20,020 nt of DNA from positions 1-20,020 of the IMG/VR virus record IMGVR_UViG_3300044843_000326; one strand, written 5' to 3'. A model generated the notes under the pieces. The model searched no databases. It saw only the letters and a list, made by a program, of their open reading frames with translations, and was not told the origin of the DNA. Each line of letters begins with the position of its first letter. The first letter of the stretch is position 1. This DNA is from a virus. Shown one piece after another: positions 1 to 16,450 of the stretch. The translations under genes and the position numbers were made by a program.

Positions 1-216
1 CAATGTAACGTAAGCCTCGCAGTATTTGGACCGCAGGTTCTCTACTTCTCTCTCCAAGGAGCTGAGCAATTCCGAAAGCTGAGCTTCCTTGCTGGTTGCT
101 TGCGAGGTGGTCAAACCTGCTCTCACGGGTCCAAAGAAAGTGAAGGCACTCCCACTCTCTCCCTCTCCAACCAAACGCAACCCACGCGTATTTCTTTGCC
201 AGTTTTCTGTTCTCAC
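1..216 (-). CDS. Hypothetical protein, N-terminal part, runs off left edge
   Basis: An open frame begins at a GTG at 216 and continues without a stop to the window edge (72 codons visible). The GTG sits in a GTGA overlap with the stop of the upstream gene at 213-518, and AGGAGAAGGG just before it is a good Shine-Dalgarno motif. The last visible ~25 residues (LSELLSSLEREVENLRSKY) look like a coiled coil. The rest is Gly/Ser/Thr-rich without a motif I recognise. The function is unknown. The start and coupling are well supported; the C-terminus lies outside the window. Confidence 0.6.
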   Translation of the reverse strand, partial: MRTENWQRNTRGLRLVGEGESGSAFTFFGPVRAGLTTSQATSKEAQLSELLSSLEREVENLRSKYCEAYVTL

Positions 217-518
217 CCTTCTCCTCCCACGTTGCTTTCGTTCTGCTTATCTGCGTTGGCTTGCTCGGATCTAGATGTGTCGTTGTTTCTATCTGTAAGA
301 ACACCAAGACTAGAGCTAATACTGGTAGCGCCAGTAATGTCCAGCCACGTTTTTGCCATACTCTCATCAGCTAACCTCTCCTGCTCAAGTAAATCCTTGT
401 ATTGGTCGGGATACTGTTGAGCAAGGCGTGTTAAAGCCCTTGCCCTAGCCCTCTGATAGTTGCGTAGCCATACAGCTCGCTTCTCAGAGTAGGCTCTGCG
501 TTTATCTATCGTTTTCAT
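213..518 (-). CDS. Small basic phage protein, actinophage-type hypothetical
   Basis: The predicted protein is 101 aa. The first ~55 residues are helical and very basic (KRRAYSEKRAVWLRNYQRAR, then QQYPDQYKDLLEQERLADE). This 'R-A-R ... hP-x-x-Y-x-x-L-x-x-x-E' pattern resembles small proteins I associate with actinobacterial phages and may bind nucleic acid, which is inference. The C-terminal third is Ser/Asn/Asp-rich and probably disordered. GGGAGGATAAGC precedes the ATG at 518. It overlaps the 28-aa gene upstream (502-588) by 17 nt and the next gene downstream by a GTGA. Confidence 0.8.
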   Translation of the reverse strand: MKTIDKRRAYSEKRAVWLRNYQRARARALTRLAQQYPDQYKDLLEQERLADESMAKTWLDITGATSISSSLGVLTDRNNDTSRSEQANADKQNESNVGGEG

Positions 519-588
519 TGAGCTTATCCTCCCATACTATGAGCAGGTAGGCAAGGATAGTCATAAGTATTACGCCTAGAAATAACAC
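502..588 (-). CDS. 28-aa membrane microprotein
   Basis: A GTG at 588 overlaps the TAG of the preceding gene (TAGTG), after the purine-rich GGGGAGAGG. It opens a 28-codon frame: about 18 hydrophobic residues (LFLGVILMTILAYLLIV) followed by a short charged tail (WEDKLNENDR). The layout is a single membrane span with a charged end, as in small phage membrane proteins. There is no catalytic motif, and holin or accessory-lysis roles cannot be distinguished from a chance hydrophobic frame. The overlap pattern matches every other junction in this operon, which is the main support. Confidence 0.55.
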   Translation of the reverse strand: MLFLGVILMTILAYLLIVWEDKLNENDR

Positions 589-818
589 TATCCTCTCCCC
601 CTCTCACTTATTATGGTAGCTAGGATTAAGGTGCTAACCTCAATTTTATCAACCATTAAAACGGGCTCTTCAGGATCTTCCTCGTTCCAAATAGATACAA
701 AGACCCTCCTATCTAGCCCCCTTCTGAACCACTCCACCGCTTCGGTAGCACTAGCGCCACCCCACACCGCGTCTTGGCCCTCTTTCTCTGTTATCTCATA
801 GAACTTAACTGGCTTCAT
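588..818 (-). CDS. Conserved phage-type small acidic protein
   Basis: The predicted protein is 76 aa with start ATG at 818 in an ATGA overlap with the upstream gene. The sequence (FYEITEKEGQDAVWGGASA, then EWFRRGLDRRVFVSIWNEED) suggests one compact alpha/beta domain: a strand, a helix around residues 22-36, two strands (VFVSIWNE and PVLMVDKIEV) and a hydrophobic C-terminal strand TLILATII. The 'DAVWGGA..AEAV.W.RR' pattern looks like hypothetical proteins I associate with actinobacterial phages. I do not know a function for it. Confidence 0.8.
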   Translation of the reverse strand: MKPVKFYEITEKEGQDAVWGGASATEAVEWFRRGLDRRVFVSIWNEEDPEEPVLMVDKIEVSTLILATIISERGRG

Positions 819-1000
819 ACTCTTTCCCTTTCTACTTCTGTGTCGTTGAGATACTGAACATAATCAAAGTCTTGATAGTGCTTACTCAAGGGCTCTACGA
901 GCGCGTCAATGAAGCGATCCATAGTTCCTTGCTCAAAATCTTCCTCCTCTTTGAGGCATTGGATAGCGTCAGTAATGCTTAAGTATTCATCGCGGTTCAT
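815..1000 (-). CDS. Small acidic helical protein, unknown function
   Basis: The predicted protein is 61 aa, rich in Asp/Glu and probably all-helical. AAGGAGGAGAAGGAC precedes ATG 1000, a strong Shine-Dalgarno. The start lies 14 nt inside the upstream gene (987-1160), and the stop overlaps the next start as ATGA. No domain is recognised. Confidence 0.7.
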   Translation of the reverse strand: MNRDEYLSITDAIQCLKEEEDFEQGTMDRFIDALVEPLSKHYQDFDYVQYLNDTEVERERV

Positions 1001-1160
1001 TGTCCTTCTCCTCCTTATAGTTAATTAAGTTGATTTGATTTAGGGCATTGACCATACGAAGCAAGTTCTTGCCTGCCTCGCCAGCCTCCCCCTCCACCAT
1101 TTGCTTTATTGCTAGTCCTCGGCATAGATCTGCCTTAGCTTGATAGTATTCTTTATTCAC
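987..1160 (-). CDS. Small helical protein with GTG start
   Basis: A 57-aa frame begins at GTG 1160, behind AGGAGGAAGC and overlapping the upstream stop in the 8-nt string GTGAATAA. The start MNKEYYQAKADLCRGLA is followed by a Gly/Glu-rich turn and the helix KNLLRMVNALNQINLIN. The segment ending NALNQ resembles the segment ending LANLNQ in its upstream neighbour (1153-1299). With the shared junction, that hints at an old duplication, but the similarity is weak. Function unknown. Confidence 0.6.
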   Translation of the reverse strand: MNKEYYQAKADLCRGLAIKQMVEGEAGEAGKNLLRMVNALNQINLINYKEEKDNEPR

Positions 1161-1172
1161 TTGCTTCCTCCT
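1153..1172 (-). repeat. Junction repeat A, copy 2
   Basis: AGGAGGAAGCAAGTGAATAA at the end of 1153-1299, containing the Shine-Dalgarno, GTG start and TAA stop shared with 987-1160. Identical over 20 bp to 1292-1311. Confidence 0.8.
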
Positions 1173-1299
1173 CTTGATTAAGGTTTGCCAATTTAAGCCA
1201 ATGATTAAAGGCTTCCTCCGATAACTTGTTGGAGCAGTATGCGTTGCCGATAAGTCCTTGAAGCTCCCGCAGTAGGGCGGGTTCTATAACCTTATTCAC
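1153..1299 (-). CDS. 48-aa helical protein with GTG start
   Basis: GTG 1299 sits in GTGAATAA, overlapping the stop of 1292-1501, with AGGAGGAAGC just upstream. The frame encodes 48 aa: MNKVIEPALLRELQGLIG, one Cys, then a helix SEEAFNHWLKLANLNQ and the acidic tail EEEASE. That tail is exactly what the next gene's ribosome site and start overlap dictate. It shares the start MNK and the LNQ helix end with 987-1160. Function unknown. Confidence 0.6.
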   Translation of the reverse strand: MNKVIEPALLRELQGLIGNAYCSNKLSEEAFNHWLKLANLNQEEEASE

Positions 1300-1311
1300 T
1301 TGCTTCCTCCT
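1292..1311 (-). repeat. Junction repeat A, copy 1
   Basis: Same 20 bp as 1153-1172, at the 1292-1501 / 1153-1299 junction. Gives both upstream proteins the tail EEASE. Confidence 0.8.
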
Positions 1312-1501
1312 TTAGTTGTGATGAAATTAGGGTAGTTCCATTAACATAATTAAACACCGCAGGATCTACCTCACTCTCTACCTCTGTTATTACTATCCAC
1401 TTAGGCATTGAACTCTCCTCCTCTATCTTGATTAGATCATCTATCTCTGGCGTTATCTTGTCCTCGTATTGGTCTAATAGATACTCTTTCATCTTAGACA
1501 T
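1292..1501 (-). CDS. Small acidic protein, unknown function
   Basis: The predicted protein is 69 aa, strongly acidic in its first half (DQYEDKITPEIDDLIKIEEE) with two probable strands later (PKWIVITEVE and FNYVNGTTLI). It starts MSKMK, the same first five residues as the gene at 1666-2079, from an identical 17-bp start region. ATG 1501 lies 8 nt inside the upstream gene. Ends KEEASE, the tail imposed by the downstream junction cassette. Confidence 0.7.
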   Translation of the reverse strand: MSKMKEYLLDQYEDKITPEIDDLIKIEEESSMPKWIVITEVESEVDPAVFNYVNGTTLISSQLKEEASE

Positions 1502-1504
1502 TAG
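1488..1504 (-). repeat. Junction repeat D, copy 2
   Basis: CTAATGTCTAAGATGAA, giving an 8-nt stop/start overlap and the start MSKMK. Identical to 2066-2082; a diverged form (ATGTCTGAG) sits at 1665-1673. Confidence 0.75.
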
Positions 1505-1673
1505 TAGTCACCTCTATACACTCAGCACCGCACTCATCTAGGTCTATGCCATACTCATCTAATAAGTTCTGCTTAGCCAGCGCCTCCGCTTGGTCTTGAT
1601 TAGGTGCTTGGATAGTAGTGTTAAGCGTAAAGTAATTAGCGACATAACTTACATTATAGCTTTTCTCAGACAT
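1494..1673 (-). CDS. 59-aa protein, unknown function
   Basis: Starts at ATG 1673, preceded by AAGGAGCTAGTC. It begins MSEKSYNVSYVANYFTLNT, followed by a helix (QDQAEALAKQNLLDEYGI) and an acidic end with two Cys (DECGAECIEV). It overlaps both neighbours by 8 nt, in the strings ATGTCTGA and ATGTCTAA. The beta-strand plus helix arrangement is that of many small phage proteins; no family recognised. The coupled overlaps at both ends support it as real. Confidence 0.65.
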   Translation of the reverse strand: MSEKSYNVSYVANYFTLNTTIQAPNQDQAEALAKQNLLDEYGIDLDECGAECIEVTTNV

Positions 1674-2079
1674 TGACTAGCTCCTTATCTACTATCCAAT
1701 TAGCTACTGTTTCAATAGCGTCTTTGACTTCGTGATAGACCTCGCCTGTGTATTCGTTAGAGCCATAGTCATAGACCTCAAACCAAGAGTTATTTATCCA
1801 CTCTCCTCCGCTATCATCTATCTTGCTCAGGTCTTTGTCGCGCTTGATACCTGCTCTTATTAGATCATCGCAGTATCTAATTATCTCCCCTTTGTAGAGG
1901 ATACGCATTTCTCCTACACATACCACGCGATACTCTCGCCCTTGATAGGTGAGTAGAGCTACATCGCTAGTATCTCCCCAAGTATAGAACGCGCTATCTT
2001 GGCGGTCTTTACGCTCCGCGTCATAGTCTAGTATCTCCAGCTCTACCCCTTTAGGTAGCTTATACTTCATCTTAGACAT
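1666..2079 (-). CDS. Alpha/beta early-region protein, unknown function
   Basis: The chosen start is ATG 2079 (MSKMKYKLPKGVELEILDY) because GGAGGGAGC lies at the right distance. The longer frame reaching to 2121 has no ribosome site and would sit deep inside the upstream gene. Length 137 aa. It contains a strand pair around LLTYQGREYRVVCVGE, and its upstream neighbour has a similar TYQGKSY hairpin, suggesting a shared fold or an old duplication. The C-terminal helix is DAIETVANWIVDKEL. Function unknown. Confidence 0.75.
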   Translation of the reverse strand: MSKMKYKLPKGVELEILDYDAERKDRQDSAFYTWGDTSDVALLTYQGREYRVVCVGEMRILYKGEIIRYCDDLIRAGIKRDKDLSKIDDSGGEWINNSWFEVYDYGSNEYTGEVYHEVKDAIETVANWIVDKELVNV

Positions 2080-2082
2080 TAG
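2066..2082 (-). repeat. Junction repeat D, copy 1
   Basis: Same 17 bp as 1488-1504, at the start of 1666-2079. Upstream proteins at the three related junctions all end in NV. Confidence 0.75.
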
Positions 2083-2314
2083 CTCCCTCCTTATTGTATG
2101 CCTTAGCATAGGTAGCCTCATCTAACTCACTTGCTAGGTCGTATTGACTTTCGTATTCATTACGCAAGCTCTCAGGCAATTTATCAAAGCCCTTCATCTC
2201 ATACCCATTATCTCTTGCCCAAGATAAGTTGATTAGATAGCTCTTGCCTTGATAGGTAATCGCTATCGTTCTCTCCCACTCAGTATCGTTATGCTCTATC
2301 AGGTTTATTTTCAT
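2072..2314 (-). CDS. Small protein with TYQG-type beta hairpin
   Basis: The predicted protein is 80 aa, starting at ATG 2314 in a TAATG overlap with the gene upstream, behind GGAGAGGGCGAG. It has strands WERTIAITYQGKSYLINLSW and a helical second half (LPESLRNEYESQYDLASEL). The TYQG-x-x-Y hairpin recurs in 1666-2079. Its last residues (ANV) are read through the next gene's start codon. Function unknown. Confidence 0.75.
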   Translation of the reverse strand: MKINLIEHNDTEWERTIAITYQGKSYLINLSWARDNGYEMKGFDKLPESLRNEYESQYDLASELDEATYAKAYNKEGANV

Positions 2315-2586
2315 TACTCGCCCTCTCCTTCTGTGTTGTAGGTAAAGATTACTTCTTGCTCTAATTGGCTAGGTCTAACGCCATACTTCTCGCAATTAGC
2401 TGGCGTTATTCTGTGATACTCAAAGTCCCATAGATCGCAGACCTGTGAGTGAGTTAGGTTAGATACCTCTAACTCTTTATAGTCATCATAATCGCGGATA
2501 CTGTCGGCTATCTCTTTAATAGACTTCCAAAGATAGCCCTCTTTCCACCCTGTCTGTTGCTTATCTATCACAAAGTAGCCCTTCAT
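2314..2586 (-). CDS. Small acidic protein, unknown function
   Basis: The predicted protein is 90 aa, with ATG 2586 in an ATGA overlap after the small membrane protein gene. The N-terminal strand MKGYFVIDKQQTGW leads to a helix (SIKEIADSIRDYDDYKEL), a middle segment HSQVCDLWDFEYHRI and an acidic end TEGEGE that carries the next gene's Shine-Dalgarno. Aromatic-rich, with two isolated cysteines and no metal-site spacing. Function unknown. Confidence 0.75.
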   Translation of the reverse strand: MKGYFVIDKQQTGWKEGYLWKSIKEIADSIRDYDDYKELEVSNLTHSQVCDLWDFEYHRITPANCEKYGVRPSQLEQEVIFTYNTEGEGE

Positions 2587-2738
2587 CTCTTGCCCTCTCT
2601 CTCCCTCTTATCGGTTATCTTGCTTATGATTACTAGCCCTAGATAGATTACTAGGGCGTAGATAATAACTTGTATTAAGGCCCAAAAGCCTCCCACCTGA
2701 ACGCTAGTTAGGCGGTCTAGTATGAACTCTAGGCTCAC
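2583..2738 (-). CDS. 51-aa single-span membrane protein
   Basis: GTG 2738 overlaps the upstream TGA as GTGA, with GAGGAGGGGG as ribosome site. After a short N-terminus (SLEFILDRLTSVQV), residues ~17-39 are hydrophobic (GGFWALIQVIIYALVIYLGL, then VII). A basic tail follows (SKITDKREREGKR), fitting one membrane helix with a positively charged inner end. It lies among soluble zinc-type microproteins. No functional motif is visible; a holin-like or host-membrane role would be guesswork. Confidence 0.6.
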   Translation of the reverse strand: MSLEFILDRLTSVQVGGFWALIQVIIYALVIYLGLVIISKITDKREREGKR

Positions 2739-2902
2739 TTTCCCCCTCCTCTAGTTAGGTATTGCTTATCGTGCTGGCACTCTGAATTGTTTTCCATACG
2801 AAAGCAGATAGAGCACCAGCTAAGGTTGCTCGCCTCCCACTCGCATTGAACACAAGTATAGAACGGGCAGGTGTCGGCGTTGGTATGCTCTCGCTTAATC
2901 AC
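2735..2902 (-). CDS. Cysteine-rich zinc-binding-type microprotein
   Basis: The start is placed at GTG 2902 (MIKREHTNADT). It lies in a GTGA overlap behind AGGAGGCGAG; upstream in-frame starts have no ribosome site. The 55 aa include C12, C17-x2-C20, C30-x2-C33, C42 and H44. The two CxxC pairs nine residues apart are the classic spacing for one zinc ion, with extra ligands at either end. Ends RGGGK. Probably a zinc-stabilised fold binding protein or nucleic acid, but the partner is unknown. Confidence 0.65.
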   Translation of the reverse strand: MIKREHTNADTCPFYTCVQCEWEASNLSWCSICFRMENNSECQHDKQYLTRGGGK

Positions 2903-2915
2903 TTGCTCGCCTCCT
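2899..2915 (-). repeat. Junction repeat B, copy 2
   Basis: AGGAGGCGAGCAAGTGA joining 2899-2994 to 2735-2902 by a GTGA overlap. Identical over 17 bp to 3170-3186; both upstream proteins end EASK. Confidence 0.8.
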
Positions 2916-2994
2916 CGCACTTGCCACAATAGCAAGCACCTAATTCTTTATTATTACACTCTTCTTTGGTGAGCGCGGGTTCCCACTCTATCAT
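2899..2994 (-). CDS. 31-aa cysteine-motif microprotein
   Basis: ATG 2994 lies in a TAATG overlap with the upstream stop; a second in-frame ATG at 3000 is possible and would add two residues. The peptide is MIEWEPALTKEECNNKELG followed by ACYCGKCEEASK. Cys 13, 21, 23 and 26 could form a single metal site. Its end is dictated by the 17-bp junction repeat. Very short, so support comes from the overlap logic and the cysteine pattern. Confidence 0.5.
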   Translation of the reverse strand: MIEWEPALTKEECNNKELGACYCGKCEEASK

Positions 2995-3173
2995 TACCAT
3001 TTATTTACCCTCTCTCTCATAATTTGAGGCTGACCTAGATACCTTCTCACTTGCGCGAGCTGGTCTAGTCTGCCTTGATAATAGTTGCGGTCATTAGCCT
3101 CGGATAAGGAGGTTGCCAGCCTCTCCAATACCCACTCTGCCTCGGTGTTTAAGAATTGCTCTAGCTCTCTCAC
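2994..3173 (-). CDS. 59-aa helical protein with GTG start
   Basis: GTG 3173 overlaps the upstream stop as GTGA, with the strong ribosome site AGGAGGCGAG. The frame encodes a charged, probably all-helical protein: ELEQFLNTEAEWVLERL, then NDRNYYQGRLDQLAQVRRYL and a basic end RERVNKW. It has no cysteine, unlike its neighbours. A short helical-bundle or coiled-coil role is likely; function unknown. Confidence 0.6.
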   Translation of the reverse strand: MRELEQFLNTEAEWVLERLATSLSEANDRNYYQGRLDQLAQVRRYLGQPQIMRERVNKW

Positions 3174-3186
3174 TTGCTCGCCTCCT
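3170..3186 (-). repeat. Junction repeat B, copy 1
   Basis: Same 17 bp as 2899-2915, at the 3170-3445 / 2994-3173 junction. A variant with ATG in place of GTG (AGGAGGTGAGCAAATGA) occurs at the 4119-4301 / 3943-4122 junction. Confidence 0.8.
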
Positions 3187-3445
3187 TACACTTTACCGAG
3201 CAAGCTATGTTATCCATAGCCTCACGATAGGTAGAAGCATAGCCAAAGCGGGCAATTAGATCGCTCGCCTTCTCCTTGAATTGGTAGCGATAAGCAAAGC
3301 TCTCGCCCTCTTTCCCTACCTTCTCTATCTCCCACTCATCAACTAGGGAGGCTAGGCAGATACACGCGGATAGCTCTCCACACTCATCACACTCATCAAA
3401 ATAAGCGGTGGAGGTGTTGTCGCACTCGGTAAGGTTATGGCTCAC
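3170..3445 (-). CDS. Cysteine-motif protein with GTG start
   Basis: The predicted protein is 91 aa, starting at GTG 3445 in a GTGA overlap with 3442-3861. The ribosome site is weaker (GAGCAGGTAAG). The N-terminal third has C8, C19-x2-C22 and C28-x-C30, a plausible zinc knuckle. The rest is helical and charged (KEKASDLIARFGYASTYREA) with a further Cys pair near the end (C-x3-C). The tail EASK is encoded by the downstream junction repeat. Function unknown. Confidence 0.7.
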   Translation of the reverse strand: MSHNLTECDNTSTAYFDECDECGELSACICLASLVDEWEIEKVGKEGESFAYRYQFKEKASDLIARFGYASTYREAMDNIACSVKCKEASK

Positions 3446-3861
3446 GCGCTTACCTGCTCTCTATCTAGTTCGCACCCGTGGCAGGAGCAAGGAGCGAAAG
3501 CGGAGATAACACTCTCCCAATTCTTACGGGCTAGGCGTAGGCTCTCAAAGCTCTTTCCCTCTCTATGGATAGTTCCATAAGGGCAAAGCATTACTATCTC
3601 GTAATACCTGCTCGCTCCCTCGTATCCGTGTCGGCTTGATACGATTACCGAGAGGCTCTCCACCTCTTGACCTCTGTTGAAAGCCTTGAAATCTACAATT
3701 CTAGACGAAAAGAATCGCATAGTATCCCTCCTGAAGTAGAAGGTTCCGCTCTCCTTGCTTGGGATTTGGTCTTGGTGCCATACCTCCGCAGGTCTAGTCG
3801 GATAGTTGCGACAACCATTACACGAGCACGCAAAGCGTGTCTCTGTGTTCTTTGCTCTCAT
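3442..3861 (-). CDS. Protein bracketed by two CSCxGC motifs
   Basis: The 139-aa product has CSCNGC at residues ~12-17 (ACSCNGCRNYPTRP) and CSCHGC at ~126-131 (PCSCHGCELDREQ). The two near-identical C-x-C-x2-C motifs sit at opposite ends of a body with strands (SLSVIVSSR, YYEIVML) and a helix (SLRLARKNWESVISAF). Six ligands could make one or two zinc sites, or less likely an Fe-S site, that clamp the termini together. ATG 3861 follows AAAGGATAAGAAG. It is the first gene after an 81-bp gap, the largest in this array, so it may have its own promoter. Function unknown. Confidence 0.8.
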   Translation of the reverse strand: MRAKNTETRFACSCNGCRNYPTRPAEVWHQDQIPSKESGTFYFRRDTMRFFSSRIVDFKAFNRGQEVESLSVIVSSRHGYEGASRYYEIVMLCPYGTIHREGKSFESLRLARKNWESVISAFAPCSCHGCELDREQVSA

Positions 3862-3942
3862 CTTCTTATCCTTTCATTAGTGGAAGGCTTAGCCCCTCCC
3901 TACCCCTCAAGGATACTCTAACCCTTGAAGGATAGGCAAGGT
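3862..3942 (-). promoter_or_regulatory. Inter-gene gap with weak leftward promoter candidate
   Basis: This is the only real gap inside the leftward array. Reading leftward, TTGCCT (3934-3939) and TATCCT (3910-3915) are 18 nt apart, each matching 4 of 6 sigma-70 consensus positions. The sequence TATCCTT-N-A-R-GGG occurs twice in the gap. Either a secondary promoter for 3442-3861 and downstream genes, or chance. Confidence 0.25.
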
Positions 3943-4122
3943 CTAATCGCTCTGTTGCTCTAATTTATCCAATACCCAAGCCAGAGCCTCGGTCTGGCCT
4001 TCCCAATACTTGCGCTCCATAGAATCCATAGCCTCCTCGGTGAGCTCCTCCTCCTCTTGCGCTAGGCGTAATTGCTCCTCGGCCTCGGTGAGAGCCTTCT
4101 TTATCTTATCTAGGTTTATCAT
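3943..4122 (-). CDS. Acidic coiled-coil protein
   Basis: The start is ATG 4122 (MINLDKIKKALTEAEEQL), in an ATGA overlap behind GAGGAGGTGAGC. A longer frame beginning with a run of arginines only reads the upstream poly-glutamate codons in another frame and is rejected. The 59 aa are almost all helical, Glu/Leu/Ala-rich with heptad-like spacing, so a coiled coil or small oligomer is likely. Last gene before the 81-bp gap. Confidence 0.7.
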   Translation of the reverse strand: MINLDKIKKALTEAEEQLRLAQEEEELTEEAMDSMERKYWEGQTEALAWVLDKLEQQSD

Positions 4123-4301
4123 TTGCTCACCTCCTCTTCTTCTTCTTCTTCTTCTTCGAAGAAGTCTGCCCAATTCGCTATAGTGAAAGTCTTACCGCAA
4201 GCCCCGCAAGGGAAATGTGCTACATCTTGCTTATCAACAAGGCCCTTGAACTCTGCCTCATTGTCGCACTCAAAACACCCCGTAAAAACTGTTGCTTTCA
4301 T
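4119..4301 (-). CDS. Zinc-ribbon microprotein with poly-Glu tail
   Basis: The chosen start is ATG 4301 (MKATVFTGCFECDNEAEF), overlapping the upstream stop as TAATG. A frame extending to 4394 only reads through the gene before it. The 60 aa contain C9-x2-C12 and C32-x2-C35 (PCGACGKTF), a standard four-cysteine zinc ribbon. The end is FF, nine Glu, then VSK. The Glu run is seven GAA plus two GAG codons, whose end forms the Shine-Dalgarno of the next gene. Such a tail could mimic DNA charge or simply be ribosome-site sequence; untested. Confidence 0.75.
   Translation of the reverse strand: MKATVFTGCFECDNEAEFKGLVDKQDVAHFPCGACGKTFTIANWADFFEEEEEEEEEVSK
4137..4164 (-). repeat. GAA trinucleotide run and 14-bp palindrome
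   Basis: Seven GAA codons in a row (4137-4157), part of a nine-Glu tract. The run's upstream end forms the perfect palindrome CTTCTTCGAAGAAG (4151-4164). A slippage-prone tract that would add or remove Glu without breaking the frame. Confidence 0.75.
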
Positions 4302-4453
4302 TAGTTGATTACCGCCCCTTCTTTGATAAGTCCAACGATTAACTCTATTGGTAGCCCGCTTGAGGCTTGAGCCTTGCTTAAGCAATTCCAGCAATAGCCT
4401 TCAATGAATTGGAGATTTCCAGCTTGAGATAAATTACAAAATAGGCAATTCAT
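4301..4453 (-). CDS. 50-aa zinc-ribbon microprotein
   Basis: ATG 4453 overlaps the upstream stop as TAATG, behind GGGAGGCTAAC. The N-terminal half holds C3-x2-C6 and C21-x2-C24 (MNCLFCNLSQAG, then YCWNCLSKAQ), one predicted zinc site. The second half is hydrophobic and helical (GLPIELIVGLIKEGAVIN). It resembles small ribbon proteins in phage early regions that bind host factors, though no specific family is recognised. Confidence 0.65.
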   Translation of the reverse strand: MNCLFCNLSQAGNLQFIEGYCWNCLSKAQASSGLPIELIVGLIKEGAVIN

Positions 4454-4465
4454 TAGTTAGCCTCC
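4448..4465 (-). repeat. Junction repeat C, copy 2
   Basis: GGAGGCTAACTAATGAAT, with stop and start fused as TAATG, between two zinc-type microproteins. Identical to 4558-4575. Confidence 0.8.
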
Positions 4466-4563
4466 CGATTATGTTTATCTAAGTGTCCCTCTATCTGGCT
4501 CATCTCCCACTCATTGGAGCGGTCATACTCAAGCCCACATCTAGGGCATTCCCAATTATTCAT
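4453..4563 (-). CDS. 36-aa C2H2-type zinc-finger microprotein
   Basis: ATG 4563 overlaps the stop of the upstream gene as TAATG, behind AGGAGGCTAAC. The peptide starts MNNWECPRCGLEY and ends IEGHLDKHNREAN. C6-x2-C9-x17-H27-x3-H31 has the ligand order of a C2H2 finger with a longer than usual middle. It would be a single finger that could bind DNA or a host protein. Very short, but the motif is complete and the overlaps match the operon. Confidence 0.6.
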   Translation of the reverse strand: MNNWECPRCGLEYDRSNEWEMSQIEGHLDKHNREAN

Positions 4564-4575
4564 TAGTTAGCCTCC
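4558..4575 (-). repeat. Junction repeat C, copy 1
   Basis: Same 18 bp as 4448-4465, at the 4563-4817 / 4453-4563 junction. The upstream proteins end EAN and the downstream ones begin MN. Confidence 0.8.
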
Positions 4576-4817
4576 TCTTGAGGTATTGGAAAGAAAGGTT
4601 CATTGGAGATAATCTCTAGTAAATCAAAGTGAATACCTTTCCATAATTCTTTGCTATTTTCTGCCATACCTACCAAGCCTTGGCGGTTATCGTAATCACT
4701 TAATTGAAATCCCTCGGGCAGGTTGATAGAGCTTTCAATAGTTCCAGAAATGCGGTGTAGAGCTATCTCTAGATTATGCTCTTGAGCTAACTTAAAGCAC
4801 TTTGCTTTAGTAGTCAT
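4563..4817 (-). CDS. First gene of the leftward array, unknown function
   Basis: The predicted protein is 84 aa. GGAAGGATAAGAA precedes ATG 4817. An N-terminal helix (TKAKCFKLAQEHNLEIALHR) leads to a short strand region and LPEGFQLSDYDNRQGLVG, then a helical C-terminus. It is the gene nearest the divergent control region and so probably the first translated from the leftward promoter. Ends QEEAN, with the ribosome site of the next gene. No family recognised. Confidence 0.75.
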   Translation of the reverse strand: MTTKAKCFKLAQEHNLEIALHRISGTIESSINLPEGFQLSDYDNRQGLVGMAENSKELWKGIHFDLLEIISNEPFFPIPQEEAN

Positions 4818-5117
4818 TTCTTATCCTTCCAATGAGCCCACCTTGAGCCCATAAGGCGAGGATAGCGGAGGCTAATCTAACCCGCAAGTAGGCAGGGAAT
4901 AATCTTTCCAAGAGTGTCGGGCTGGATAGCTCTGCCGACAGATTTCAAGATCTTGGGAAATAGTCAGAGAAAATCCAAATAGTGAGATGAGGCAAGGCGA
5001 GGGCTAGGAGCTGGAAAGGTGGCAAGGCTTGAGGGCTGGCAAGAGATAGGGGCGAGGGCTAAGGCAACGGGCGAGAGAGTAAGGCAGAGCTCCAGCCTTA
5101 TCGGGTAGGGCTAGGCA

Positions 5118-5135
5118 GGGCAGGGCAGGGCAGGG
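5118..5135 (+). promoter_or_regulatory. Canonical four-run G-quadruplex motif
   Basis: GGGCAGGGCAGGGCAGGG: four runs of three G separated by uniform 2-nt CA loops, with two more GGG runs at 5103-5105 and 5108-5110. Short equal loops favour a stable parallel quadruplex. The G-rich strand is the non-transcribed strand for the leftward genes, where it could be exposed as an R-loop forms. Function is inferred. Confidence 0.55.
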
Positions 5136-5147
5136 CTATCGGATAGC
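5135..5147. promoter_or_regulatory. 13-bp quasi-palindrome, operator candidate
   Basis: GCTATC, a central G, then GATAGC. The 6-bp arms are perfectly symmetric, suiting a dimeric repressor. It lies just downstream of the leftward promoter candidate, within its transcribed leader. Confidence 0.35.
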
Positions 5148-5226
5148 GGTTTATTAAATAAGGCTCGGAGAATTATTAGGGGAGAGGGAGCGCTAGATAG
5201 GTGCCGATAGGGTAATTGCCCCCGCC

Positions 5227-5255
5227 ATAATCCCCCGCTATTCACTTATGCTCAA
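5227..5255 (-). promoter_or_regulatory. Leftward sigma-70-type promoter candidate
   Basis: Reading leftward, TTGAGC (5250-5255) and GATTAT (5227-5232) are separated by exactly 17 nt, each with 4 of 6 consensus matches. Transcription would begin near 5220 and give a ~400-nt, C/U-rich leader before the first gene at 4817. This is the best promoter I found for the array, by eye only. Confidence 0.4.
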
Positions 5256-5480
5256 CACTATCTCGCGCAAGTCTGCCAGCGTGCGAAGGGGGCGACCCTA
5301 GGTGATTAAATGGAGGGCGCGTAGGGCTGTAGACCCCAACAAAGTTTTTTTCCTAAAGTGAACCTTGATCATCTAGTGTCCTAGTTTGTCCGTATTTAAT
5401 TGTGATGTTTACCACAAAACAAAGATTTATTTGCAGAAAGCGGGAAATGACTATTTTTTCCCGCCTAATACAGTATAGGA

Positions 5481-5510
5481 GCAGTAAGCGGAACGGTTGT
5501 AGCTTACTGC
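5481..5510 (+). other. 9-bp perfect stem-loop
   Basis: GCAGTAAGC (5481-5489) pairs fully with GCTTACTGC (5502-5510) around a 12-nt loop. No U-run follows, so it is not a standard terminator. It is the first of four hairpins upstream of the terminase gene. Confidence 0.55.
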
Positions 5511-5522
5511 GGGCTACGCTGA

Positions 5523-5549
5523 CGCTACGCCCCTCTAAGGGCTGTAGCG
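5523..5549 (+). other. Stem-loop with CGCTAC/GTAGCG arms
   Basis: CGCTAC (5523-5528) pairs with GTAGCG (5544-5549), and CCC (5530-5532) pairs with GGG (5539-5541). The left arm is part of a direct repeat of GCTACGC (5513-5519 and 5524-5530). Confidence 0.45.
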
Positions 5550-5573
5550 GACTTACCCCTCACTTCGTTGTGA

Positions 5574-5616
5574 CTCGTTCGGGCGCCAAGCCCGATGACG
5601 AGGCGCAAGTCGCCTC
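5574..5616 (+). other. Two overlapping, mutually exclusive stem-loops
   Basis: TCGGGC/GCCCGA (5579-5584 with 5590-5595) can be extended by CTCGT/ACGAG (5574-5578 with 5598-5602) across a 2-nt bulge. GAGGCG/CGCCTC (5600-5605 with 5611-5616, 5-nt loop) uses some of the same bases, so the extended first stem and the second stem compete. GC-rich against an AT-leaning background. No U-tract follows. Confidence 0.45.
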
Positions 5617-5657
5617 ATTTAGTTGGGTGTAATCTATCTATAATTTAGGAGCCTGCT

Positions 5658-11043: not shown

Positions 11044-14000
11044 GTGATAGAGAAATTGCACAAAGGGTATATTCTGAAAAACTTCAAGCAAAGAATCCCT
11101 CTGCCTTTGACACTATGGGAACCTTTAATCGTTATTACAACGACCCTCGTAATCCTGCTTCGTTAGCAGCTCCTGCGGATTTTGGAAGAGCTCTACCTCC
11201 AGCCAATCGCGCTGAAGCGCAACAAACTCTTACACGCCAAGAAGAGTTAAAAAAAACTGAACAAAAAATTGGTTTCTGGGGAAATCTTTTTAAGTATATG
11301 GAGAAGGCTTACAACCTTTCAGCCCAGGCAGTTTCTTTTGGTTTACTTGTTGGCGAGGAAACTAATCCACTTTATCAGGGTAAAGGATTAGATGTAAGTA
11401 AAGTTCGTCAATCTTGGGATAAAGCTCGCACTGTATCTCCAGGTAGAGCCTTAGTAAGAACTCTTACTGGTCAGCCATTAGATCTTATAGAAGATGCTCT
11501 CAATGCAGCAACTCTAGGTAAGAGTCGCAATAAAGCAGAGAAGTTTATTAAAGACCATTTACTTTTTGCTGCTAACGACTTTGATATCTACGATAAAGAA
11601 CAAGCGGAAAAGGCTTTTCGTGAGCAAACCTATGGTCGCTTTTCATCTTGGGGAACGGATGTAGTTGCTCGCTTTGTTATTGATCCTACTATTATTGTAG
11701 GTAAAGCTGTTAAAGTTGCTCGTGCTGCTAAGTATGCAGTAAAAGGAACTTCTGAACTTAAAGCGGTTCTTGCTGGAGAAAAAGTTGGACCTAGAGCAGA
11801 ACGTATCAAGGCAACCTTACAAGATTTCGTAGAAAAAACAGATGACCTTACAGCAGCAGAATTATTCCGAATTAAAGCTATTCGTGAGTCTGCAGCTCCT
11901 GCATCATTCTCTGACCTTATAGCTAAGGCTAATAAGATTGAAGATGTTACTGCCCGTCACGCAGCAAAGACTGATATAGTCCAATGGGCTATGGGCGATG
12001 TTGGTGCAGCTACCCGTTTATTACAAACTAATAAAGATATAGCAGCAGATATTGCTAACCTACAAGATGAAATTGTAGGAGCTAAGTTCTTTGGTGCTGG
12101 TGTAGATAATGTTAGCGGTCAATTAACAATGGATTTAGTAAACCAAGGCGATAATCTTGAAAAGAATATTGCTATGGCTGCTCAATATGAGCAGGAACTA
12201 GCCTCTAATATCCAGAAACTAAGCGCTGAAGCAATTATTAACCCTAATATTATTCCTAGTGTAGATGCCGTATCTCGCATAAGGACAACAGCCTTTAGAA
12301 GTCAAGGTCTTATTGACCTTCGTTCAGGTGCTGCAAGCACTCCGCTACGTATTATTACTGGATTTGCCTATAAGCGTCCTAAAGGTTGGATTGATTTTAC
12401 TGATAATCAGTCATTACAGACTGTAGATAATCTACTTAGCAGAGTTCGTGGCGTATCTGATAAACAAGAAAAACTTTATCTTGCTAATATTTCTAAATTA
12501 GAAAAAGATTTACTTCTTACAACTGACGAAACTCAAAAGAAAATCATAAAAGCTAAAATAGATGCCAATAAGCGTAGCATTGAATTATCAAAATTTACTG
12601 TTGAACGCAAGAATGAATTGTTTGATAAGTATGTTGCTACAGTAGATCCTATACAAAGAGCTAATGTCTATCAAGAAATAGAGCGAGAGCTCTTTGATAC
12701 TGTCGCTCGTCAGTTTGGATACACTAATCCTGAAGATGTACGTAGGGCTTGGGCTACTTTTGCAGGAGCAAGAGCTAGAGCACATAACTTAATTCGTGAA
12801 CGCGCCTATACTGGCGCTATAGACCCTGCTACTGGTGGTCCAGTAGGTGGAAGATTAACACCTATTGAAGGTATTGATGGTACTCAGCTAGTTATTCCAA
12901 TGCCTTTAACTGAATCTCAACTGTTAAAAGAACTACCAACCCTTGATATTGATGGTATGTATGGCGCTTTGACTAAAGCAACTCGTGCAGCTCGCTTTGA
13001 AGCACTAGGTCCTGTTTATGCTTTCCAGCGCGGAGTTGGAGAATTAACTCAAAGCATTGATTCCTTGATTAAGTTTGAGGTTTTAGCTCGCGTTGGATAT
13101 CCAATACGTAGCGTTACTGAAGGATTCTTACGTATTGCCAACACTGTTGGCGCTATGGCTATCTTAAACCGTACAGGAATAGGCGTTAAGAATATAGTTC
13201 AAAACAGATTCAAAGATGCTAAGCCTACTGAGATAATTGATTATCTAGATAGCGTTAAACTCAACACCAAAAAATCTGAACTTCTTGCTGGTATTGATGA
13301 TGCTGATAATCCAGAGTTAATTGAAAGACAAATTGCTGAAATTGATGCAATGCTTGACGGTAGAATGAAGATTAAAGACAAGTTTGGTCTAGGTCTTCGT
13401 GAGATAAAGATTGGTGATGAAGTTATCACCTACGAAGATGCTTTCGGAGCTACCCCTGCTAAGGCTAAATACATTCAACAAAGATTTATTGTCAACGCAG
13501 CTACCCTAATGGATAATGCTTTTAGCGAATCATCTAGTAAACTACGCAATGCCACTGAACTTAGTGGAGATTGGGTAGTTATCAAAGGCACAGATGAGAA
13601 TTGGGCAGAGTCCTATGCTCGTGTAGTTAATCGCCAACTGCGAGGATCTAAACTTGCATCTATCTTATTAAAAGATGCTCCTAGGGAGCAAGTTATGAAC
13701 AATGCAAAGATGTTCCTTCTTAAAGATCCAGAAGGCCGACAGATATTAAAGAACCTTGCTCTAGGTCGTAACGTAGATGAGTTAGTAGAGGCCAATATGC
13801 AAAATATTGAGTCGCTGTTTCCATCATATATTAGCCCTGCATTGAGGGCTATCGCTGCTAAACGTAATATAACAGCAGATGATATTGCTAAGTATATACC
13901 AGTAGCTGGTCGTCCAGATGTAAACGCAGCTCAAGTAAAGACTGCTCTTGGTCGCGGTGCTCCTATGCGTATCTGGTCTAACTTCCTAGATAACTTTTAC

Positions 14001-15680
14001 AAGGGATTCGGTGAATTACCTGAAGCAACCCTTGTTCGTAATCCATTGTTTGTAGATTTATACCGTAAGCGTATGGATGCTTTAGTAAAGAATGCTATTG
14101 ATGAGTACCCTGGAGACAGTATTCCACCAGAGTATTTACGTAGCTTAGAAAACAAATCTCGCCAATGGGCTAGAGCTGAAATGCGTAGAACTCTTTACGA
14201 TACATCAGAACGTGTGGATGCAGCATCTACTATGCGTTATATTTTCCCATTCTTTGGTGCATTTGCTGACGTTGCTGAAAAGTGGGGTCGCATTATTCTT
14301 AACGACCCATCAACTATCCGTAAACTAGAAACAGTTTATGATTCTCCAGACCGCAATGGTATGGTTGAAGAACGCAATGGAATTAAATACATTAACATTC
14401 CTGGTGAGTGGGCTAAGTTCCTACGTCTTGATCCAGGTGAGCGTCCAATCTCAATTCCAAAGCCATCATTAAACCTTATCTATCAAGGTAATGCTTGGTG
14501 GAATCCAGGTGCTGGATGGTTTGTTCAGTATCCATTATCATCTATTTTGAAGAAGTATCCCGAAAAAGAAACCAATAAGGTTATTAGAGAAATCCTTCCT
14601 TATGGTCCACAAGATACCCGTATAAGAAGTTTTCTTATCCAGAACGCAGCGTTCCGCCGTGCTTTAGATGGCTTTGACCCAGAAAGTCCATTACGTTCTA
14701 ACCTAACAGTACTTGTAATGGCAGAAGAAAGCCATAAGTATGCTACAGGTCAGCGCGATAAAGCTCCATCTCCTGATGAAATCAATAACAAAGTAAAATT
14801 TATTATTGGTCTTGATGTAGTATCTAGAGCGTTGCTGCCTTTTGCTACCCAGACTCGCAGTCCTTATCAGTTCTGGATTGATGAATACCAGCGTATGCGC
14901 GGAGAAGACCCAATAAACGCTGCTGAGAACTTCTATAACAAATATGGTGATGAGTATTATTACTTTACAACTAGCCTTTCTAGGAACTATACAGGCGTAG
15001 CTGCAACAGTTGAGGCTGATAAGAGAGCAAAGCAATTAAAAGACCTTATCGCTACCAATCCAGAGTATGGCTGGTTCTTGGTTGGAGATGCTAATGCTGG
15101 TGAATTCTCGCCTACTGTTTATCGTAAGCAGAGAGAACAGGCAGTAGCTCCTGGTTCTACTCAGAAATTCCGTGAAGCCCAAGATCCATACGATGCTATT
15201 CAGGATACCAATGCAGAGCGTGGTTGGATTCTTTACAACAAGGCTATGGACCGTATTGAAGTAGAGCGTGTAAATCGTGGTCTTAAGAGTCTAGAGTCTA
15301 AAGGCGCTGAGGATTTGAAACAGTTAAAAACTGATTTTATTTCTGCTCTGTCTAAAGAAAATCCTGATTGGTCTGCAGTGCGAGGTAGGATTGATACCCG
15401 AAAGGTTATGAACTTCCTGACATTTGCTAAGAAGGCAACTTCTGATCCTAGGCTTTCACCTCGCAATGATATGAAAACTATGGCTGATTATCTAAAGGGT
15501 CGTCAGTATGTTGTTACATTATTATCGCAACGTAAATCTAAAAATATTAACAATGAAGAAAATGCTGATCTAAAAGAACTATGGAGTGCTTTTACTGGTG
15601 CTCTTATTGATAGAGATGTTACGTTCAATAGAGTCTATACGCGTATTCTTGAAAATGATACTTTGTTAGAAGGGCTATAA
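11040..15680 (+). CDS. Giant 1546-aa protein, probable virion-internal protein
   Basis: The largest gene, in the head module between portal and scaffold, starts in an ATGA overlap. No catalytic signature was recognised. Landmarks: a helical region with hydrophobic stretches (~200-235, WGTDVVARFVIDPTIIVGKA), a coiled coil (~468-527), a hydrophobic helix block (~683-725, RSVTEGFLRIANTVGAMAIL) and an aromatic segment (~1064-1090, MRYIFPFFGAFADVAEKWGR). The last resembles a motif in large polyvalent or internal phage proteins. The C-terminal third is charged and helical. Size, position and short hydrophobic segments suit an ejected internal protein like T7 gp15/gp16 in role, not by homology. A multi-domain head or neck protein remains possible. 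Confidence 0.75.
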   Translation: MSDREIAQRVYSEKLQAKNPSAFDTMGTFNRYYNDPRNPASLAAPADFGRALPPANRAEAQQTLTRQEELKKTEQKIGFWGNLFKYMEKAYNLSAQAVSFGLLVGEETNPLYQGKGLDVSKVRQSWDKARTVSPGRALVRTLTGQPLDLIEDALNAATLGKSRNKAEKFIKDHLLFAANDFDIYDKEQAEKAFREQTYGRFSSWGTDVVARFVIDPTIIVGKAVKVARAAKYAVKGTSELKAVLAGEKVGPRAERIKATLQDFVEKTDDLTAAELFRIKAIRESAAPASFSDLIAKANKIEDVTARHAAKTDIVQWAMGDVGAATRLLQTNKDIAADIANLQDEIVGAKFFGAGVDNVSGQLTMDLVNQGDNLEKNIAMAAQYEQELASNIQKLSAEAIINPNIIPSVDAVSRIRTTAFRSQGLIDLRSGAASTPLRIITGFAYKRPKGWIDFTDNQSLQTVDNLLSRVRGVSDKQEKLYLANISKLEKDLLLTTDETQKKIIKAKIDANKRSIELSKFTVERKNELFDKYVATVDPIQRANVYQEIERELFDTVARQFGYTNPEDVRRAWATFAGARARAHNLIRERAYTGAIDPATGGPVGGRLTPIEGIDGTQLVIPMPLTESQLLKELPTLDIDGMYGALTKATRAARFEALGPVYAFQRGVGELTQSIDSLIKFEVLARVGYPIRSVTEGFLRIANTVGAMAILNRTGIGVKNIVQNRFKDAKPTEIIDYLDSVKLNTKKSELLAGIDDADNPELIERQIAEIDAMLDGRMKIKDKFGLGLREIKIGDEVITYEDAFGATPAKAKYIQQRFIVNAATLMDNAFSESSSKLRNATELSGDWVVIKGTDENWAESYARVVNRQLRGSKLASILLKDAPREQVMNNAKMFLLKDPEGRQILKNLALGRNVDELVEANMQNIESLFPSYISPALRAIAAKRNITADDIAKYIPVAGRPDVNAAQVKTALGRGAPMRIWSNFLDNFYKGFGELPEATLVRNPLFVDLYRKRMDALVKNAIDEYPGDSIPPEYLRSLENKSRQWARAEMRRTLYDTSERVDAASTMRYIFPFFGAFADVAEKWGRIILNDPSTIRKLETVYDSPDRNGMVEERNGIKYINIPGEWAKFLRLDPGERPISIPKPSLNLIYQGNAWWNPGAGWFVQYPLSSILKKYPEKETNKVIREILPYGPQDTRIRSFLIQNAAFRRALDGFDPESPLRSNLTVLVMAEESHKYATGQRDKAPSPDEINNKVKFIIGLDVVSRALLPFATQTRSPYQFWIDEYQRMRGEDPINAAENFYNKYGDEYYYFTTSLSRNYTGVAATVEADKRAKQLKDLIATNPEYGWFLVGDANAGEFSPTVYRKQREQAVAPGSTQKFREAQDPYDAIQDTNAERGWILYNKAMDRIEVERVNRGLKSLESKGAEDLKQLKTDFISALSKENPDWSAVRGRIDTRKVMNFLTFAKKATSDPRLSPRNDMKTMADYLKGRQYVVTLLSQRKSKNINNEENADLKELWSAFTGALIDRDVTFNRVYTRILENDTLLEGL

Positions 15681-16450
15681 TGAGTAAAGACTTTGTAGAA
15701 AATTTTTTCAACAACTATGGTAATACAGCATCTGCTGCTGGAACTTATGTGAACAAAGTTTATCTTGGCTCTCAAAAGGTTCCTGGTTATACAACTCCAA
15801 GTCCTACAGGTGGCACATATACTGTTGAGCCAACATCTAAAGACCTTACAGAGACTATAACCCAAGCCCAAGCTCGCTACTTAACGGATGCTCAACTACG
15901 TGAAAAGTGGAATACAGCTTTGCGTAAAAATGGATTTAGCGCAGACCCTATTCAAGCTCGTGCCTTATGGGACTTATCTGTAGATGGCGCTTCTGACTGG
16001 TATTCCACATCTAATGGCCAGCAAAAGATTACCCCAGAGCAATACCTTGGTTGGTATTCAAGCGGTAAAAAGAAGAAGGGTCCAGCCCTTCCTACCCGTC
16101 AGGTATATCAGGTAACTGAAGATGAAATTTCTGCAGACATTGATGATCTCTTACAGAAAAAAGCAGGGCGCACTTTACAAGACTCTGATAAAGATATGGG
16201 CTGGTATCAAGATCTAGTTAAGAGTATCGGCAATCTTTACGGCGAAGGTATTGTAACTACTGTTAAAGAAGTAAAGAACCCTAAGACTGGTAAAATGGAG
16301 AAGGTTGTTACTCAGGATCCAGGCTTTTCTAAAGAACAAATTGCTGAAGAAATTACTTCTACAATAGAAGCAGAAGATCCTGCATCTGTTCAGCGTAAAC
16401 AAAGAATTGATAATACTAAATGGCTATTGTCACGAGGAGGTAAAGGCTGA
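15680..16450 (+). CDS. Putative virion protein (256 aa)
   Basis: Starts in a TAATG overlap with the giant gene, behind AGAAGGG. The N-terminus is Thr/Gly/Ser-rich (~residues 15-55) and low complexity. Then come a helical segment (ARYLTDAQLREKWNTALRKN), a Lys-rich linker, and a helical C-terminal half (TEDEISADIDDLLQKKAGRT). The ending WLLSRGGKG carries the next gene's GAGGAGG. It is co-translated with its neighbours and probably part of the same virion substructure. No family named with confidence. Confidence 0.7.
   Translation: MSKDFVENFFNNYGNTASAAGTYVNKVYLGSQKVPGYTTPSPTGGTYTVEPTSKDLTETITQAQARYLTDAQLREKWNTALRKNGFSADPIQARALWDLSVDGASDWYSTSNGQQKITPEQYLGWYSSGKKKKGPALPTRQVYQVTEDEISADIDDLLQKKAGRTLQDSDKDMGWYQDLVKSIGNLYGEGIVTTVKEVKNPKTGKMEKVVTQDPGFSKEQIAEEITSTIEAEDPASVQRKQRIDNTKWLLSRGGKG

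Follow-up and report, generated by a model that had tools for sequence, protein, structure and literature searches.

Whether phage mosaic boundaries arise from short-homology recombination or from random joining followed by selection is a long-standing question. The boundary-sequence (linker homology) model, cited in PMC3029335 and PMC3233612, holds that exchange points fall at short sequences conserved at the borders of modules. Boundary homology has been reported as undetectable at most mosaic boundaries (PMC3029335), and work on mycobacteriophages has as its standard model illegitimate recombination followed by selection (PMC3029335, PMC3233612). In Cluster I mycobacteriophages (Island3 and Brujita), a single small gene, Island3 gene 68, differs in presence between phages and is bordered on each side by a repeat, which was explained by recombination between the copies (PMC3029335). 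In Cluster K mycobacteriophages, many non-structural genes that are unrelated to one another have, upstream of their starts, a short repeat (Start-Associated Sequence, SAS) containing a Shine-Dalgarno (SD) sequence, and a role in translation was proposed (PMC3203893). Phage Rad52-like annealases carry out relaxed (homeologous) recombination between imperfect, short homologies (PMC3945230, PMC2327257).

We analysed a 20-kb IMG/VR virus record (the window; 20,020 nucleotides in full), whose left part holds an early array and whose right part holds the terminase and structural genes. About 200 related loci were retrieved from IMG/VR using terminase and early-array proteins, and 168 were kept after duplicate removal. 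All sequences compared were metagenome contigs, and the phage group is large and uncultured. Among 50,697 phage records, no cultured relative matched the window at the DNA level, and the window terminase shared less than 50% identity with those of Streptomyces phages. A prophage route to the host was also followed; terminase relatives were not found in 84,980 species genomes. About 700 bp between the early array and the terminase (4930-5640) lacked convincing genes but held a (GGGCA)n run near 5115-5140 and a stretch ~90% conserved in relatives; this is probably a divergent control region. In one relative (G005, the contig of L131), the terminase gene at 13948-15762 was broken by many frame breaks, probably reflecting an error-rich assembly.

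The array, the gene used as an anchor and the repeats were as follows.

213-4817, minus strand: early array of ~21 small genes, mostly overlapping and translationally coupled
987-1160, minus strand: anchor gene (VNKEYYQAKADL...), its family pooled by clustering with the neighbour at 815-1000
1153-1172, minus strand: 20-bp repeat AGGAGGAAGCAAGTGAATAA (SD, GTG start, upstream TAA stop), before anchor gene 987-1160
1292-1311, minus strand: second copy of the 20-bp repeat, before gene 1153-1299
1488-1504, minus strand: 17-bp repeat CTAATGTCTAAGATGAA, at the start of gene 1292-1501
2066-2082, minus strand: 17-bp repeat CTAATGTCTAAGATGAA, at the start of gene 1666-2079
2899-2915, minus strand: 17-bp repeat AGGAGGCGAGCAAGTGA, before gene 2735-2902
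3170-3186, minus strand: 17-bp repeat AGGAGGCGAGCAAGTGA, before gene 2994-3173
4448-4465, minus strand: 18-bp repeat GGAGGCTAACTAATGAAT, before gene 4301-4453
4558-4575, minus strand: 18-bp repeat GGAGGCTAACTAATGAAT, before gene 4453-4563

All four exact pairs reported in the initial annotation were thus recovered, as was a diverged relative placed at 4118-4134, which we located at 4106-4142 with 68% identity. All four repeats lie at SD sequences or stop/start overlaps on the minus strand. Two of the four families, among them the 20-bp one, represent variant forms of a single junction, GGAGG-MR-AGCAA-GTGA. The 17-bp CTAATGTCTAAGATGAA copy spans the overlap and codons 2-5 and lacks the SD. The identity between 2899-2915 and 3170-3186 lies within a longer 37-bp pair that is 84% identical. 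No exact repeat of at least 16 bp was found in the late-gene half of the window. At 4119-4170, directly 5' of an SD, a (GAA)n run gives the protein a C-terminus of consecutive glutamates (EEEEEEEEEVSK), which may have arisen by slippage and be tolerated as a tail.

We compared these matches with several chance expectations. Junctions were defined as -24 to +14 around the start and modelled by position-specific chains whose order ranged from 0 to 5, with 1,632 other junctions of the group as the training set. Because the chains were position-specific and trained on real junctions of related arrays, constraints on the SD, spacing and overlap were included in the null. Sets of 19 simulated junctions yielded 0-0.07 pairs of at least 17 bp, compared with four in the window; with 1,500 samples drawn for each model, not one reached that count. 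The longest match in the simulations averaged 8.7-12.1 bp, so the earlier estimate that ribosome-site and overlap needs explain about 10 bp was about right. When real junctions were drawn one per contig, 0.34 pairs of at least 17 bp were obtained (P(>=4) = 0.002). A codon shuffle keeping proteins and overlaps, as proposed in the initial annotation, gave at least four such pairs in 0 of 1000 trials. Freezing the SD bases as well gave P(>=4) = 0.019; this version is over-conservative and nearly uninformative, as it fixes nearly the whole repeat. Among relative loci with at least 10 junctions, 11 of 112 had a pair of at least 17 bp, placing the window at the rich end.

The initial annotation had also suggested looking in relatives for gene presence/absence breakpoints at the repeats. 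Each of the four repeats proved to have a gene-lacking contig carrying a single hybrid copy with 0-1 mismatch: the upstream flank matched one window copy, the downstream flank matched the other, and the intervening gene or genes were missing. For the 1153/1292 repeat, contig L087 held the exact 20-mer once, with 97% (upstream 60 bp) and 82% (downstream 60 bp) identity to the two copies. The exact 17-mer of the 1488/2066 repeat occurred once in L009 (95% and 93%, respectively). Single copies with one mismatch were found for the 2899/3170 repeat in L018 (85% and 75%) and for the 4448/4558 repeat in L003 (83% and 95%; ATG to GTG). The missing segments were as follows.

1153-1299, minus strand: single-gene cassette, 48 aa, missing in L087, where the junction is collapsed to one copy
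1494-2079, minus strand: two-gene block (1494-1673 and 1666-2079), missing in L009
2899-3173, minus strand: two-gene block (2899-3000 and 2994-3173), missing in L018
4453-4563, minus strand: single-gene cassette, 36 aa, CPxCG zinc-ribbon-like, missing in L003

A further junction was seen inside an open reading frame.

1408-1424, minus strand: internal junction GAGGAGGAGAGTTCAATG inside ORF 1292-1501, a breakpoint relative to L009 and L155

This internal site has an SD and an ATG (MPKWIVI...) with no stop ahead, and both L009 and L155 break exactly here. ORF 1292-1501 looks like two cassette genes fused after the junction lost its stop codon.

We read the repeats as marks left behind by the exchange of cassettes of one gene (or two) in the early array of a group that resembles actinophages, and put the probability of this explanation as a whole at about 0.7. 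Convergence or gene conversion could instead have pulled junctions toward one optimum (translation, mRNA stability or codon 2-5 effects) with no role in exchange. The SD and codons 2-3 are A/G-rich group-wide, so a strong common constraint does exist; however, models containing this constraint yield far fewer long matches, and hybrid single copies in gene-lacking relatives would be unexpected, making such an origin very unlikely. An assembly artefact, in which chimeric metagenome contigs were joined at short repeats, has to be considered since every sequence is a metagenome contig. Its probability appears almost nil: assemblers usually work with k-mers longer than these 17-20 bp repeats, the flanks differ from the window by 3-25%, indicating that the contigs represent distinct phages, and across many samples the gene families reappear next to other neighbours.

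The initial annotation had named tandem duplication as its alternative: a gene would be duplicated together with its junction, and the copies would then diverge fast. In some cases a single gene is indeed flanked by the repeat, and the genes are short and fast-evolving. In single-gene events, however, the inserted gene was homologous to the downstream gene in 0 of 174 cases and to the upstream gene in 7 of 174 (BLAST and phmmer). No phmmer match between neighbours was found at E<=0.01, homologous adjacent pairs numbered 11 of 3,431, and the intervening genes were found elsewhere beside other neighbours. This lack of paralogy between flanking genes speaks against a recent tandem duplication, which we consider very unlikely as the source of the repeats.

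Cassette exchange at junctions was also visible across the group. Both breakpoints fell within 20 bp of a called start in 81% of 345 clean presence/absence events inside early arrays, compared with 3.7% expected by random placement; several events among the remaining 19% were at starts missed by the simple caller. A first tally had given only 55% at starts because events on the other strand, outside the array, diluted the count. The 345 events are not all independent, with junction-to-junction events forming 95 clusters, 89 of them inside the array, and 174 of 251 junction-to-junction events involved exactly one gene. Gene order proved highly fluid: early families had a mean of 6.3 upstream neighbour families, and the commonest neighbour's share was 45% for early genes versus 75% for late genes. 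Where the neighbour had changed, identity of the downstream gene was high to its start, intermediate from -1 to -16 and at background by about -17, while that of the upstream gene was high up to its stop and then collapsed. These profiles place the joint zone in the SD-to-start stretch. Among other-strand genes beyond the early array (L072 and L047), a 20-bp repeat, TGGCATTACTGTTTCTCCTT, flanks another presence/absence event; it is an SD-ATG junction on the opposite strand, and the phenomenon is therefore not confined to the early array. Within the limits set out here, these data support the conclusion that this group acquires, loses and rearranges its small genes singly, with the ribosome-site junctions between them as the breakpoints and, in some cases, a 17-20 bp repeat left on either side.

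The anchor gene allowed us to follow one junction through many contexts. The pooled anchor family had 61 upstream neighbour families, and MNKE-type genes alone had 37. The 20-mer was present once each in 34 contigs of the viral collection. In ~30 of these it preceded the anchor family (VNKEY...), behind unrelated proteins, nearly all ending in EEASE, from 11-12 upstream families; in L083, it followed one of those upstream genes but preceded a gene other than the anchor. In a count not selected on the 20-mer, the EASE tail was found in 10 of 37 upstream families before MNKE-type anchors versus 1 of 611 at other junctions. The junction therefore dictates the upstream tail, and the suggestion that cassettes set the C-terminus of the upstream protein was right for the 20-mer junction. 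Upstream of the 20-mer in L039, L115, L117 and L205, otherwise different genes have a longer 3' end in common (TPEIDDLIKMEEEASE), which indicates that some exchanges cut inside the upstream gene and that whole C-terminal tails travel.

We then asked how much homology matters. Exact runs averaged 6.26 bp at event-flanking junction pairs versus 4.88 (sd 0.26) at non-event pairs from the same arrays at equal gene separation (0 of 5000 resamplings; 89 clusters). Runs of at least 17 bp were found in 5 of 89 independent clusters when counted by best member (3 by cluster mean), versus 0.45 expected. With the SD core matched, codons 2-5 were still more alike at event junctions, at 5.06 versus 3.78 of 11 (P = 1e-4 over pairs, 0.011 over clusters), while neither the spacer (P = 0.12) nor the bases upstream of the SD (P = 0.27) was enriched at the cluster level. 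Homology beyond functional need was thus present and, once the SD core was matched, modest. In most events the match in register is only 4-9 bp long. Lengths of 17-20 bp form the tail of the distribution and are still shorter than the minimum for efficient pairing by RecA (31-34) or Red-beta (23-27), as quoted in PMC3945230. Decay of repeats with age was not seen, as run length and flank identity (recency) were uncorrelated (Spearman -0.10, P = 0.34). Because most events share 4-9 bp and length does not track recency, a role for short homology, whether used or favoured, is supported in a minority of the events we can see; much of the remainder is probably due to selection that keeps coupled genes intact.

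These results bear on the strongest alternative reading, that illegitimate recombination makes joints anywhere and that survivors lie at boundaries preserving the SD, start and stop, with the repeats as by-products of translation signals. It predicts breakpoints at starts equally well, and it suits both the SD-core homology that is all most events show and the independence of run length from recency. It accounts less well for the greater homology of event junctions over matched non-event ones, for the excess of clusters with long runs, for the resemblance of codons 2-5 beyond the SD core, and for the fact that all four window repeats are breakpoints. We regard it as unlikely, while leaving it a real share of our belief. 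The proposal that junctions serve as short homologies for inserting, losing or swapping cassettes accordingly stands in part: single-gene cassettes are gained, lost and swapped there, and the four repeats are exactly breakpoints, but homology as the driver is supported for a minority of events.

Under the cassette-exchange reading, each small gene ends in a coupling junction, with the SD in the last codons of the upstream gene, a spacer, and a stop overlapping the next start. Surviving recombination events would be those falling within this 15-20 bp zone, where two junctions could pair because they are alike. Recombination between two junctions of one genome would remove the gene or genes between them and leave one hybrid copy; the reverse, between two phages, would insert a cassette with a junction copy on each side. 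We infer that the joints arise by pairing over short homology (annealing, or template switching during replication) and then pass through a filter, selection for coupled genes that are intact. The close relative G001 has genes for a RecE/Cas4-like exonuclease and for a resolvase of RusA-like or PDDEXK type, along with a primase, a DnaB-like helicase, a sigma factor, a WhiB-like regulator and a proteasome/HslV-like peptidase; among its proteins we recognised no annealase. Genes for the last two, the peptidase and the WhiB-like regulator, were also seen in L200 (4198-4821 and 2371-2724, respectively). The WhiB-like regulator and the Streptomyces-phage-like terminase suggest an actinobacterial host. 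A stronger version, in which the array has evolved as an exchange system and its junctions stay similar because cassette shuffling is selected for or keeps reusing them, perhaps with a phage exonuclease/annealing pathway acting on them, seems improbable to us; it would mean that any gene could be inserted at any junction and translated at once. Of the "built-in exchange mechanism" suggested initially, exchange at junctions is upheld; a dedicated recombinase or selection for exchange is not. Selection for intact, translatable genes predicts junction breakpoints too.

The findings bear on the question of how single genes can pass between phages while the adjacent genes stay intact, for which this group supplies hundreds of single-gene events with breakpoints near base-pair resolution and internal controls. 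They also explain C-terminal tails common to unrelated small phage proteins, which can mislead homology searches and annotation.

Among known systems, the phenomenon fits the boundary-sequence model and is a variant of this known model of mosaicism. As in that model, one short sequence borders genes that are unrelated (the window has four exact pairs), and presence/absence breakpoints fall at junctions (4/4 window repeats; 81% vs 3.7%). It differs in that the boundary is a translational-coupling junction (SD plus stop/start overlap) inside coding sequence that rewrites protein tails, in that the modules are single genes of 30-140 aa, and in that many event junctions have homology of SD length only. 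The phenomenon also resembles Island3 gene 68, a single instance in which the repeats measure ~50 bp and lie at the 3' ends of genes, whereas here there are many independent events, with 5-20 bp repeats at gene starts. Unlike SAS, the junctions are of several types, overlap stop codons and reach codons 2-5, and breakpoints map to them. Membership in the Cluster K SAS was rejected: its 13-bp consensus GGGATAGGAGCCC gave 0 matches with up to 2 mismatches. Rad52-like annealases offer a mechanism, but Red-beta needs ~23-27 bp of perfect pairing and the relative examined has no recognised annealase. Integron-like cassettes use a dedicated integrase and attC-type inverted repeats, whereas these junctions are short direct repeats with an SD; an untargeted scan of the relative's proteins showed no integrase. 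In the open-licence literature we found no direct precedent for exchange at SD-overlap junctions. The novelty lies in three points: the coupling junction itself forms the boundary, each module is one gene, and numerous events lend themselves to measurement against internal controls.
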